From Naegleria lovaniensis (lineage: Eukaryota; Heterolobosea; Eutetramitea; Acrasida; Naegleriidae), in the NCBI RefSeq assembly GCF_003324165.1, contig NW_025407833.1, positions 673,948-737,947 of the forward strand: 64,000 bases of DNA, written 5' to 3'. The notes beneath the pieces were generated by a model, which worked only from the letters and a program-made list of their open reading frames with translations, was not told the origin of the DNA and made no database searches. Below are positions 15,444-21,483 of the stretch, in pieces. How positions within the stretch are numbered: the first letter of the stretch is position 1; each line of letters opens with the position of its first letter. Both the position numbers and the translations under genes were made by a program.

Positions 15444-15446
15444 CTA

Positions 15447-15864
15447 TGGCGGCGCAATTGGTACTAGAAACCTGTCAGATATTCGTCAATCCCACGTCAG
15501 CTGATTTGAGTAAACTCCAAAGGAATCAAAAATAAAATGAGTGAGTCTCTTCCTGATTGGTTTGCAAGGGTTTGAAGAACCGAAGCAACTTGGGTTCTTA
15601 CTGCAACAACAGACAAACTGAAACGAAATATAGAGGCCATAGGACGTTACACCATTATTCGCTTCAGCTGAAGCTTGTAAAACAACAGCGTGCCAACGAA
15701 CAGCTCACGGAAGACAGATCCTTGCTAGCACCCTAAACCAGAACTATTACCAATTCTACTGCATGACATTCAACGAATAAATTTTTTTATGCTTTCATAT
15801 TCATTTTTGACTTGACGAATATCTGACAGGTTTTTAGTGCGCTTCAACGTCGGATGCGCCGCCA
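15447..15864 (+). mobile_element. 418-bp MITE-like element, copy 1
   Basis: Ends are TGGCGGCGCA and its inverse TGCGCCGCCA, flanked by TA on both sides (15445-15446, 15865-15866). Inside, after 11 or about 20 bp of unlike sequence, lies a perfect 22-bp inverted repeat built on AAACCTGTCAGATATTCG. The middle has the 14-bp palindrome GCTTCAGCTGAAGC (15662-15675). No transposase or long ORF is present. It reads as identical, in opposite orientation, to 20589-21006. TA flanks suggest mobilisation in trans by a Tc1/mariner-type transposase (inference). It is inserted in the acetyltransferase domain of the kinase/F-box/GNAT gene, antisense to that gene. Confidence 0.85.
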
Positions 15865-18800
15865 TAAGACACCACACTCAATGCATCTCGTTCTTGGTTA
15901 TATTTCTTGTTCGTTCGGTCTCGATTCTCACTCAATTCCTTAATGACCTTCTCGTGTGTACATGGTTCTTCTTCTTGATGATGATACAAAATGGTAAAGA
16001 TGGGTAACGTGGCTTCATCGCTAGCTCTCAGAATGGGCATTAATACTTCACTTCCGAGACCTTTCTTTCGTTCGAGAGGTGAAACGAGAAGGGCAAGGAG
16101 AGTCCAATGAGGTTTTTCATGGATGGGCATGAGTTGAGAATGAATGTTTTCCATACATTCGGCTGCCTTAATGGATCGATAAATGGATTTAAGACCTCTG
16201 TGTGTAGTGTTTCAATAATAATCATGATTTACAATTGTTTGAAGGTGCATTATTTGCCAATGGTATGCAGTCGTGAGTCGTGTATATGTGTGTGTGTGAT
16301 TGACAAATATAGAGATACAAGATTGACATCATTTCGGTAAAACAAACATACAAGAAAAAATTTGGAAATTAATCTACTTACAAACTTTTGGGTGCCTTGA
16401 CAATACCCAATTTTAACATTCTCCAAAATCCAATTCCTTTTGTATTGTAGGGATCTTGCCAAATCGAAAGTGCTTGAATTTCTTTAGGTTGAGCATCGAC
16501 TGGAAATTTCACATTCACATACACTCGGCCATATTTACATCCATATTTGATGACAAGTTTACAAAGAAATAGAATGGCTTCTTTAGATATTTTCGATTCT
16601 ACATGATCTCTATAATTTTTTCCATCCTTCTCCTCTTCCGAAAATTCCAATGGATGTGAAATGTTAAAAATATATTTCAATAAGGGATGCAATGAGGACA
16701 TGAATGATCGTGACGAAGCATGTGATACGTCGTGACGTGTATGGGGTGGAATTTTTTTCAGATCATGTTTCAAATCTCTTGTGTCTTCTAAGGATGATGA
16801 TTTTTCAGTGATTGTTGTCGTTGCTGTGCTGCTACTACTACTATTACTTTGAGGAGAATCCATGGAAATGGGAGAAGAAGAAACATGCCCTTCAATGTTA
16901 TTCTTCCTCTTTTGAATCAAAGTATTTAGTGGTGGTTGTTGTTGTTGTTGTTGCTGCTCAACTCGAGAATTCATGAAAACTTTGGAATTGTTGTTCTGAT
17001 GATCATTTCGTTGAGATAATTCTTCATCATTAGAAAGACTCGAAAATCCAAACATTAAGGAACGAGCCATAAATAAAGCAGCTTCATCGATTTGTGAAGG
17101 ATGTATTTCACTCACCACGTTCCGTCCTCTCTTATTCATGTCTCGTCTCTTTTTAGGTTTTTGAAATTTCACATAATTGAAAACTTGTTGTTTAAAAATA
17201 TTAATTTCCAAAGAATTGTGGACACTGCTCGAACTTGTAATGCTCAAATTTAAGGCACGAATGGTCGTGTTCATGATACTTGAAGAATTTGTGTTGTGAA
17301 CATTGGAGAGATCGGAATGAGAACTTTTTGCACTTCCTGATCGTTTTCGACGTGATGAGGAGCAAGTTGGAGAGGATGATCCTACTCCTTGAGATTCTTG
17401 TAAGAGTGATTTGGTAATTTCTTTTCCAAGCTTGGTAGATGTAATGAGTAATTTCCACCACTGTCATTGTCGTAGTAGTTGTAGTCGTCATTGTCGTCAG
17501 AAGGTTCACAGGTGGTTGTTATTCATGATGATGAACCATATATTAAATTGTGATTTGAAATTTGTTGACACTTACATGTTGTTCCCATAAATTATAAAAT
17601 TCCATACATGTAAGACCTTTGTATCATATTCATTTCATAGCACAATAATAATCATTCATTTCACACATAGTTGGTTCATAAATAATCATATACTCACCCA
17701 TATGATACATGTCTTCAATATGAAGAAATGCAAAAACTCGTAATTTCAAATCATTGGTCAAGGCCTTAAAATCTTGCAAGACTAGATTAAGTTTTCCATG
17801 ATGCTTACTAGAATGAGCTTTCAATCGATTCAATTTTTTCAAACATTGTTCAGCAGAAGGTCTCTCACGAGTGTCATAACTCACCAATGATTTGGCTAAT
17901 TGAAAGAGATCACGAGAATATCCTAAATCTTCGATACATTGATGTTCCAAGTCCATAAAAAGATTTGGATTTTTTCGAAGTTCCATTGAAAACATGATGG
18001 ACTTGCCAATCATCATTTGAAAAAGAATTCTTTGATTTCCATATATATATATTTGGATGTGTCCACAAGTGCCACTCATACTGTTCCAACTTACACTCCA
18101 TAAGAATACATGTCTGTGAGTTGATCATAGGGCTCCTTATTAAGCATTTCATAACTCATATATTCCAAAGTACCGCATTGAGTCTTGGGAATGGAATGTG
18201 TTGAAATTTCTCGAGAAATTCCAAAATCTCCAATTTTCAACACACCATCCGAAGCAATTAAAATGTTTTGAGGTTTTCTATTGAAGAAAATATGAGACCA
18301 ATATTTTCATTATAAATTCCTTAAACACCTTAAACACTTACAAATCTCGATCTAGTATAATTTCATCATTCACACACACACATATATATACATACATATA
18401 CATTCACACATATATATACACATATATATACACATATACATTCACATACACACACACGCATTATTCAACCATCAGAATTCAAAGAACAACATGTATAAAT
18501 AACAATATTACACCTACGTATAATATTATGTTCATGTAAATATCGTAATCCCTCTGCAATTTGTTCTGCATAATTGACAATAGCCTCTTCTTTCATCTTT
18601 CCTTTCTTAATCGTTGACGTTATCAATTGTTGTAAATCTCCTCCAGGACAATATTCCAAACACAAACACACATAGAGTGTCTCTGCCTTCTTTGAATATT
18701 GATGAAGAAAGACACTCAAATATTTGATAATATTTTTATGAGAGAGATCTCGGAGTTTCTGAGCTTCGTTGAGATGAATATTGGCATCTTCGTAACTTGC

Positions 18801-19256: not shown

Positions 19257-21067
19257 TTATTTGGAGAGAGCAGAGAGGAATTGTTGGCTTTCCAATCCTT
19301 CAACTTCTCTTGTAATTGGTACATTAGGTAAATATCCTCTCTTTGCAACGTAATTAATGGCTAAAGGCATGGCATTTGTCTTTTCTTGTTTGCTGCTCTT
19401 GTCACCAACCCAAATAAAGACATGAAGACCAGAATCCAAGATAAAGACATCATTTTCGTTCAACAAGGACTTTTGAATTTGATCTCCTTCGCCAACAAGT
19501 GTACACACAATACTACCACTAGCGTCACTCACACGGAATAATCTCTTTTGTTTTGCTTCTTGAGGAATTAAGCTAGCATTGTCTGGAATTGCATTTTGGA
19601 CATCACTTGGAGATCCCTTCAATAAGGAGAAGAATTCTTCCTCTGCCTTCAAATCTCGTTCGTTCTTGGATCCAGCACCAACATGGAATACTTGTGCAGA
19701 ATCGGAACGATCGTCTTGCATGGCTGTCACAACAGTGGCAGTCTTGTACTTTTCCTGAGGAGATGCCTCCTCTCCAACCCAAACGAAAATCTTGTTTCGA
19801 GCGTCAAGAATGAAAGCATCACCCTTGTTGAGGGAGGCACATTTTGGAGAGACTTCATAGACACGAACATTCTTACGTCCCTTCACATGCCACAATGTGA
19901 CGACTCCCTTATCGCTTGCAGTTGATCTTCCCTTTTCAAGCTCACTATCGACGTGTGTGAATCCAGTAGCAGTACCACCATGAACGACACGTAGTCCAGA
20001 ATTCTTATTACAAGTTTGGAAGTAGGAAAGGAAAAGATCGCTTTCAGTTCCTTGTACTTCACGATGTTCCTTTGGAAGAGTGCCGAGCAAATCATCGAGT
20101 TCAACTGTCTTGTATGCTGCAACTCCCATCTGTGTAGGAGTTGAGGAATTCAATTAGCATGAGATGGAGAGATCAATTGCAATGTGTGTGAAAATTGTCA
20201 CATTAAACGTTCATGATGAGATCAAAATTGATAGTATTGTCATGATAAGTGTTTTAGAAATGATCGAGATGCCATCATGAAAATAATTTTGAAATTATTA
20301 AATAATCAAGTGATTGTCATGATCAGCGTTGATGATGACATTATTTCAAAACTTACTTCATCAATACTGGTCAATTTTCCCAACCAAAAGTGAATATCAT
20401 AGGATTTTTTCCCATTCTTATCAATCACAGTATTCAACACAATATAGGAGTCACCATCAAAAAAGTTTCCATATTCATTCTTTGGTACAGGCTTGACCTT
20501 GAATTGTTCAATTCGCCAAATGGACAATCCTGCGTGATCGCCAGCTCCTTTCCATTCATCGGCTGTTCTTGCTGCACGAACACGAGTATGGCGGCGCATC
20601 CGACGTTGAAGCGCACTAAAAACCTGTCAGATATTCGTCAAGTCAAAAATGAATATGAAAGCATAAAAAAATTTATTCGTTGAATGTCATGCAGTAGAAT
20701 TGGTAATAGTTCTGGTTTAGGGTGCTAGCAAGGATCTGTCTTCCGTGAGCTGTTCGTTGGCACGCTGTTGTTTTACAAGCTTCAGCTGAAGCGAATAATG
20801 GTGTAACGTCCTATGGCCTCTATATTTCGTTTCAGTTTGTCTGTTGTTGCAGTAAGAACCCAAGTTGCTTCGGTTCTTCAAACCCTTGCAAACCAATCAG
20901 GAAGAGACTCACTCATTTTATTTTTGATTCCTTTGGAGTTTACTCAAATCAGCTGACGTGGGATTGACGAATATCTGACAGGTTTCTAGTACCAATTGCG
21001 CCGCCATATCCAATGAAGATCCAATGAGAGCACAGTTAGAATCGGCGAGTTTGACTTGTTGAGCCAT
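19257..21067 (-). CDS. Severin-like actin-severing protein, interrupted by a 418-bp element
   Basis: Three gelsolin repeats, the size and layout of severin/fragmin (about 360-390 aa), which cap and sever actin filaments in a Ca-dependent way. Coding pieces: 21067-21007 (MAQQVKLADSNC...), [element], 20586-20357 (TADEWKGAG, LSIWRIEQFKVKPV, IHFWLGKLTSIDE), intron, 20129-19257 (AAYKTVELDDLLG, KGDAFILDARNKIFVWVG, ENDVFILDSGLHVFIWVG). Pieces one and two are separated by the element at 20589-21006. If the element and one flanking TA are removed the frame is perfect (61+230 nt = 97 codons, then exon 3 in phase 0), giving 387 aa. As it stands the frame is broken unless the element is spliced (GTACTAG...CTGACAG keeps frame and adds 17 codons). 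Cofilin and a divergent actin lie nearby. Confidence 0.88.
20589..21006 (-). mobile_element. 418-bp MITE-like element, copy 2
   Basis: Same 418-bp unit as 15447-15864, inverted, with no difference that I could find by eye. TA flanks at 20587-20588 and 21007-21008. Central palindrome GCTTCAGCTGAAGC at 20779-20792. It lies in the coding sequence of the severin gene, in the same orientation as that gene. The flanking host sequence is consistent with simple insertion at one TA. Confidence 0.88.
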
Positions 21068-21483
21068 CATGATGTGAAAATTTTCTTGTTGATGATGTTA
21101 ATGACTGTTGAAATTTTTTGTGGTTTGATGAAAATGTGGATGACATGTTGATGATGATCATCAAGTCTTGAGATGCTTGATGAGAAAGCCCCTCCGATAT
21201 TACCTTTGATCAGGAACGCCCTTTTAGATGAACTTGGGCATTTACATTGGGTTACTGTAAATCCAAAAACCTCACTCGACCTCAAACGATCAAGAAAAAC
21301 TCAACCCTTCATTGAATGTTCCATCCACCCAGAGATACTTTACATTCTTCATCATCAGCATGACCATCATAACTACAACAACCGGAACGATAATTTTGTT
21401 TTTTCTCTCACAAAAATGGTGCAGAGTTGGCGCCGGAGATTTACAACTGGAAGCGGCACCATTAAATGAACCTTAAAAAAAAA
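21068..21483. promoter_or_regulatory. Divergent promoter region, severin / CIPK-like kinase
   Basis: About 415 bp between two head-to-head starts. No ORF with support. It likely holds both promoters; no specific motif is identified. Confidence 0.45.

Follow-up and report, generated by a model that had tools for sequence, protein, structure and literature searches.

The CMCT (CACTA-Mirage-Chapaev-Transib) clade of DNA transposons has CACTA/EnSpm, Mirage, Chapaev, Transib/RAG1, Plavaka, and ESTA as members, and its transposases are characterized by C(2)C and H(3-4)H motifs located between D2 and E (PMC12730594). The 5'-CA..TG-3' ends of the clade are said there to hold "in most cases", PlavakaA having TGT..ACA instead. 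The ESTA elements of rust fungi, which were recognised through their similarity to RAG1, have a TA target duplication and the C(2)C and H(3-4)H motifs between D2 and E; the families described are those of Pucciniales that carry TET/JBP, while ESTA elements without TET/JBP are listed too in the supplement (PMC12730594). Plavaka A, a fungal member of the clade, has 2-bp duplications and ends of the TG..CA kind, 5'-TGT..ACA-3' (PMC12730594). For mouse RAG1, the residues of the corresponding pattern are given as D600, D708, C727, C730, H937, H942, and E962 (PMC4914335).

Concerning Naegleria lovaniensis, DNA transposons are put at 1.25% in the genome paper, the accessible text of which does not name any family (PMC6125883). 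Among the matches listed for Naegleria transposons and transposases, the titles and abstract openings hold no description of the elements considered here, and the combination of Naegleria with the full name of MITEs gave no match in the literature. The present analysis describes a complete, apparently intact pair of an autonomous element and a MITE in this deep-branching eukaryote, a host for which we know of few genetic tools. We consider it probable that the pair represents a recently, perhaps still, active TA-targeting family of the CMCT type, in which the MITE is moved in trans by a 688-aa transposase.

Anatomy of the MITE in the window

The window is a stretch of 64,000 nucleotides (NW_025407833.1, positions 673,948 to 737,947). 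As claimed in the preliminary description, it contains two copies of a 418-bp element, at 15447-15864 (+) and 20589-21006 (-), which are identical, have opposite orientations, and are flanked by TA on both sides. In an inverted-repeat search of an 8.5-kb region, the arms 15445-15866 and 20587-21008, which are 422 nt long including the TAs, were found to be 100% complementary, while the arms of the next longest inverted pair listed there measure 40 nt and match at 70%. The features of the two copies are the following.

15447..15864, + strand: MITE copy 1, 418 bp, with the same sequence as 14 other genome copies
20589..21006, - strand: MITE copy 2, 418 bp, in the opposite orientation to copy 1
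15445..15446, unstranded: TA target duplication to the left of copy 1, from the sequence
15865..15866, unstranded: TA target duplication to the right of copy 1, from the sequence
20587..20588, unstranded: TA target duplication beside copy 2, from the sequence
21007..21008, unstranded: TA target duplication beside copy 2, from the sequence
15447..15456, + strand: perfect 10-bp terminal inverted repeat (TIR) TGGCGGCGCA, left end of copy 1
15855..15864, - strand: 10-bp TIR at the right end of copy 1
15463..15489, + strand: 27-bp subterminal inverted repeat, left side of copy 1, 6 bp inside the TIR
15812..15838, - strand: 27-bp subterminal inverted repeat, right side of copy 1, 16 bp inside the TIR
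20964..20990, - strand: 27-bp subterminal inverted repeat, copy 2, element-left side
20615..20641, + strand: 27-bp subterminal inverted repeat, copy 2, element-right side
15537..15575, + strand: 13-codon remnant, stop included, of the beginning of the transposase frame, read by eye
15661..15674, unstranded: 14-bp palindrome, inside former coding sequence

The 27-bp subterminal repeat has one mismatch, and its inner 22 bp correspond to the perfect repeat that had been noted before. The left 27-bp repeat is a candidate binding site of the transposase. The right repeat lies 10 bp deeper in the element than the left one, which is about one helical turn, so that the two candidate binding sites would be exposed on the same face of the DNA. 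The central 14-bp palindrome is also present as described, but it was dropped as a functional feature and is probably incidental, because the 2.2-kb element discussed below carries a non-palindromic version at the same codons.

Copies in the genome and their target sites

The search of the 30.69-Mb assembly (97 contigs) with copy 1 showed that the MITE is not confined to the two copies of the window: at least 29 full-length MITEs were found, and all genome copy counts given here are lower bounds. Fifteen of the 29 are identical, five belong to a second type and are identical to each other, and two identical copies form a third type. Another copy has 2 substitutions and lacks 30 bp through a deletion; the remaining six, 377-413 bp long, differ from the main type by small deletions alone. 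The length is thus exactly 418 bp in 22 of the 29, and six of the other seven are those with small deletions, which resemble base-calling errors. The 29 copies have the characteristics of MITEs, being short, homogeneous in length, present in many copies, and without coding capacity, and having both TIRs and a fixed target duplication in common with the autonomous partner. In addition, a 131-bp fragment of the MITE is located at C60:8167-8297.

All 29 MITEs and all four full-length 2,231-bp relatives have TA on both sides (33 of 33 sites), with the common layout TA-TGGCGG...CCGCCA-TA; in the MITE at L028, deletions fall within one TIR. The 12-mer TATGGCGGCGCA has exactly 66 matches in the genome, all of which are ends of the MITEs, of their long relatives, or of the truncated element in C47. 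Allowing 1 mismatch adds 6 matches, none of them at the described copies, and the reversed 12-mer, used as a control, had 0 exact matches and 4 when 1 mismatch was tolerated.

The reading of the window pair as a segmental duplication or an assembly artefact is already refuted by the flanks. Such an event did take place elsewhere, as another pair (L001/L008) has 1,500 bp of flank in common on both sides and is a duplication, but the window copies share no flank beyond the TA, and the 33 sites display 32 distinct flank pairs. At these 32 distinct sites, the base preceding the TA is weakly biased to T and the one following it, still more weakly, to A, which allows no preference beyond TA to be claimed. 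Seven of the 32 sites lie in spanning open frames of at least 200 codons, a smaller share than the 61% of 1,500 random TA sites, this background being taken from one 64-kb window only.

Host genes at the window sites

The two copies of the window had both been placed in coding exons. The coding sequences next to them are the following.

20309..20587, - strand: coding sequence of the gelsolin/severin type, downstream of copy 2 (PF00626 in Pfam with E 1e-5, above the cut-off)
21009..21070, - strand: start of the gelsolin/severin reading frame, upstream of copy 2, with the ATG at 21070 (by eye)
15867..16211, - strand: coding sequence, possibly of an acetyltransferase (GNAT), that ends in copy 1 (PF00583, E 0.055, below the cut-off)

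For copy 2 the assignment holds. When the site is emptied to a single TA, an open frame of 30+93 codons with the gelsolin repeat runs through it, and the element splits a gelsolin/severin-type coding exon about 20 codons past the ATG. The coding context of copy 1 is equivocal, the GNAT match having an E-value of only 0.055 and the single-TA junction reading TAG in the possible GNAT frame (by eye).

It could be proposed that the MITE is an intron carrier of the introner type, such that splicing inside the element restores the host frame. By eye, a GT is present at position 15 of the element and an AG precedes its last 35 bases, and a splice between them would leave 51 nt including the TA, in frame in the severin gene. 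However, chance alone would be expected to provide some GT..AG pair that restores a frame, we identified just one clear coding exon with a forward insertion, and the element is reversed in 7 of the 10 sites with spanning frames of at least 150 codons, which makes this proposal very improbable.

The autonomous partner

It had been predicted that an autonomous relative with the same ends should exist elsewhere in the genome, and four 2,231-bp elements with the ends of the MITE were indeed located (C39, C28, C25, and C14). The C39 and C28 elements are identical, while C25 differs by 1 base and C14 by 5. Four of these six changes are silent and two alter the protein; the single change in C25 is silent and both altering changes are in C14. 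Each element has one intact intronless frame, which in C39 comprises 688 codons counted from its first ATG, and the proposed search for a transposase gene bearing the same termini thereby ended in four near-identical copies of an intact 688-aa frame.

The outer 59 and 65 bp of the MITE, including the TIR and the subterminal repeats, are identical to those of the 2,231-bp element, whereas the overall identity, these ends included, is 78% over positions 1-246 and 89-90% over positions 247-418. Only the start and the end of the transposase gene are retained in the MITE, and residues 1-40 of the 688-aa protein match it at 15537..15575 in the genome search. Because the two have diverged outside the identical ends, the MITE must stem from a diverged cousin and did not arise simply by deletion within the 2.2-kb element now present.

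In an alternative scenario, a diverged and now lost autonomous cousin moved the MITE and the present 688-aa element does not. The limited identity of the MITE to the present element is in line with such a scenario, and the searches of the assembly turned up no intact cousin. On the other hand, the perfect conservation of the outer 59 and 65 bp with all their repeats, and the occurrence of mutually identical copies of both the MITE and the element, which fits a shared mobilisation, argue for mobilisation by the 688-aa transposase, and we regard the lost cousin as a rather unlikely source of the activity.

A fifth autonomous copy, which lacks the 5' end, is found at C47:198245-200673 (L035), a few bases from a complete MITE. 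This arrangement is possibly the product of an adjacent deletion during transposition.

Mechanism and recent mobility

The family most likely moves by cut-and-paste. The 688-aa transposase, presumably of the DDE type, would probably bind the 27-bp subterminal repeats, cut beside TGGCGGCGCA, and join the ends of the element to a TA dinucleotide, which would become duplicated in the process. The same enzyme of the 2,231-bp element would also act on the MITE in trans, as we infer because the two have the same ends and the copies of both lack mutations.

The identity of the two window copies had been taken as a sign of recent activity, and the genome bears this out, since the 15 identical MITEs sit at 14 distinct flank pairs. 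The six length variants (L023, L024, L025, L027, L028, and L029) are also informative in this respect. In the pairwise alignment with the main type, they have neither substitutions nor insertions; each carries 5-30 small deletions, and 90 of the 96 deletions touch a homopolymer run (lenient rule). On the one side tested, the flank is open for 323, 499, and 500 codons beside L023, L025, and L028, respectively, and the other three deletion-rich loci have no such long flanking frame. Errors at the rate seen in the insert would break these flanking frames, clearly so for L028, and the error is thus apparently confined to the insert. The homopolymer content of the flanks of the six is 0.387-0.587, as compared to 0.330-0.610 in the clean loci, and that of the inserts is 0.403-0.470, as compared to 0.483 in the clean main type, which is expected from the deletions. 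The deletion noise resembles long-read error that was left uncorrected in the insert alone, as though few reads contained the insert, and the six MITEs may be polymorphic insertions that are present in part of the chromosomes or cells. Such possibly polymorphic insertions would make present-day activity directly testable.

The suggestion of local mobilisation, made on the basis of the two hits within 5 kb, receives modest support from the clustering of copies. Two pairs lie no more than 5.2 kb apart, against 0.20 expected (P 0.015); at a limit of 20 kb there are 4 pairs against 0.75 expected (P 0.007), and at 55 kb 5 pairs against 1.99 expected (P 0.04), where the distances were chosen after the data had been seen and contig ends were ignored. 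These values refer to 34 places, one of the duplicated pair being omitted and the 131-bp fragment and the truncated copy being counted.

In C45 (156920-157475, 171750-172338, and 235612-235748), 138 bp of host flank occur together with the MITE at two inverted sites 15 kb apart. As this close pair has the 138 bp of flank in common, not every pair represents an independent hop; the shared flank points to gene conversion or flank capture. A third C45 paralogue without the MITE is 98% identical over 401 bp to the joined flanks of L006 and has 7 extra bases at the junction, and it therefore supports insertion without being a clean empty site.

Active-site motifs and classification

The library searches used here miss the 688-aa transposase. 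Against Pfam it gave noise only, at E up to 10, and against PDB sequences no match beyond chance, while pattern scans of viral contigs and prokaryote genomes, whose reach is limited to close relatives, gave no relatives. The protein does display the motif order D-C(2)C-H-H(4)H-E, made up of D353, C369-C372, H461, H606-H611, and E631. This fingerprint was fixed after the proteins had been seen and leaves out the first D. When the protein was shuffled 20,000 times, it turned up twice, and none of the 22 open frames of at least 300 aa in the window contains it; it is also absent from the genome's one clear PF02992 protein (786 aa). D353 and E631 fit as the second D and the E. For the first D three residues qualify (249, 270, and 289), and we prefer D270 by its motif.

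The partner had been expected to be Tc1/mariner-like, and this part of the prediction fails. MITEs of the Tc1/mariner kind resemble the present one in their TA duplication and short TIRs, and the TA is found here at every one of the 33 sites examined. In Tc1/mariner transposases, D2 and the following D/E are 34-39 residues apart. The proposed D2-E distance of the 688-aa protein is 278 residues, with the C(2)C/H(4)H insert in between, and it is this protein, without a Pfam match, that is encoded between ends identical to those of the MITE. Furthermore, TA duplications are found also in CMCT (ESTA) and PHIS (PHISTA) elements, and every exact TATGGCGGCGCA match belongs to the copies described above. 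An assignment of the MITE to Tc1/mariner is therefore hardly tenable, and the motifs argue for a placement of the 688-aa transposase with the CMCT clade.

The closest parallels lie within this clade. The TA duplication falls in the CMCT range of 2 to 5 bp, while the ends are TGG..CCA instead of the 5'-CA..TG-3' of most lineages. ESTA agrees in having the TA duplication and the same motifs between D2 and E, but the families described carry TET/JBP, whereas one gene only is present in the Naegleria element, the two being compared by description only. Plavaka A is akin to it in the 2-bp duplication and the TG..CA type of ends and differs in the exact ends, again by description only. With regard to Transib/RAG1, in the 688-aa protein the distances from H to H (5, that is, H-4-H) and from the first H to the catalytic E (25) are the same as those calculated from the RAG1 residues quoted above. 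The other distances differ, D1-D2 being 83 (if D270) versus 108 in RAG1, D2-C 16 versus 19, and the C-H insert 237 versus 210. Transib target duplications are 5 bp long. By its spacing, the active-site pattern of the 688-aa protein thus resembles that of RAG1, the enzyme that rearranges antibody genes, and if the core is RAG1-like, the clade that gave rise to V(D)J recombination would gain a Discoba branch, one that follows another target rule (TA) and has other ends.

CACTA/EnSpm elements (PF02992, tnp2) have a similar motif order, and the 1043-aa sister family described below has CAC..GTG ends; the 688-aa element differs by its TA duplication, its TGG..CCA ends, and the lack of a PF02992 match. 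No direct homology of the 688-aa protein to a member of the clade was detected; a possible connection proceeds by a chain through the 1043-aa and the 942-aa proteins to PF02992 at E 0.0079. For the first link, BLASTP of the single pair gives E 1e-5 and the genome search E 0.053, and single-sequence hhalign gives a weak C-terminal match with a probability of 5.7%. The score of the 688-aa protein against a profile of the three sister families is 9.8 bits, narrowly above the highest value among 2,000 shuffles (8.1). The 1043-aa family matches the 942-aa family at 9.4e-16, and the 942-aa protein matches PF02992 (CACTA tnp2) below the curated cut-off. The MAFFT alignment of the four proteins misaligned the 688-aa core, and motif spacing was therefore used instead. 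In all four, a D is followed after 16-17 residues by C(2)C, then by an LH motif and H(4)H, with the E located 25 residues past the first H; an upstream D is present in each of them. Through the sister families, the 688-aa protein is weakly linked to the CACTA transposases.

A different interpretation is that the 688-aa protein is the DDE transposase of a separate, unnamed superfamily and that its C/H pattern is convergent or misread. The lack of any profile match, the TGG..CCA ends, and the thin sequence link to the sister families would be accounted for in this way. Against it stand the agreement of the four families in motif order and in the 25-residue H-to-E spacing and the fact that one of the four reaches PF02992, if weakly. 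We judge this interpretation to be unlikely, although less so than the other alternatives considered, and prefer to regard the 2,231-bp partner as a new lineage that probably works as the CMCT transposons do and appears, by motif, to lie near them, that is, as a family of a known kind of element. A stronger version, in which the 688-aa enzyme founds a TA-specific lineage of superfamily level within the RAG1/Transib/CACTA clade in Discoba and is transposing now, with at least six MITE insertions partly present, can be put forward only tentatively, the balance being somewhat against it.

Sister transposase families in the genome

The 1043-aa intronless frame is located at L062:2627-5758 (-), and 8 more copies are found in C18, C2, C11, C13 (twice), C31, C40, and C59. 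The nine copies are near-identical, with further relatives read as 952 and 942 aa, and the protein has no Pfam match over the cut-off. Judged by eye, both copies whose two ends were inspected have CAC..GTG; one of them shows a 3-bp AGA duplication, and the other is not clean. The 1043-aa family is a second recently active DNA transposon family of this genome. The related frames of 952 and 942 aa, at L070:408-3266 (-) and L071:224-3052 (-), have the same motif order and are of low copy number. The 786-aa PF02992 (CACTA) protein is encoded at L067:499-2859 (-) and also in C36 and C25, and the C3 copy lies about 1.2 kb from a MITE.

Finally, repeated stretches whose similarity to the 1043-aa family (64-86% identity, with stops) is confined to its N-terminal coding part are found at C4:494687, C5:163758, C9:302718, C31:355792, C2:563762, and others. 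They possibly have the same architecture as the 418-bp MITE.
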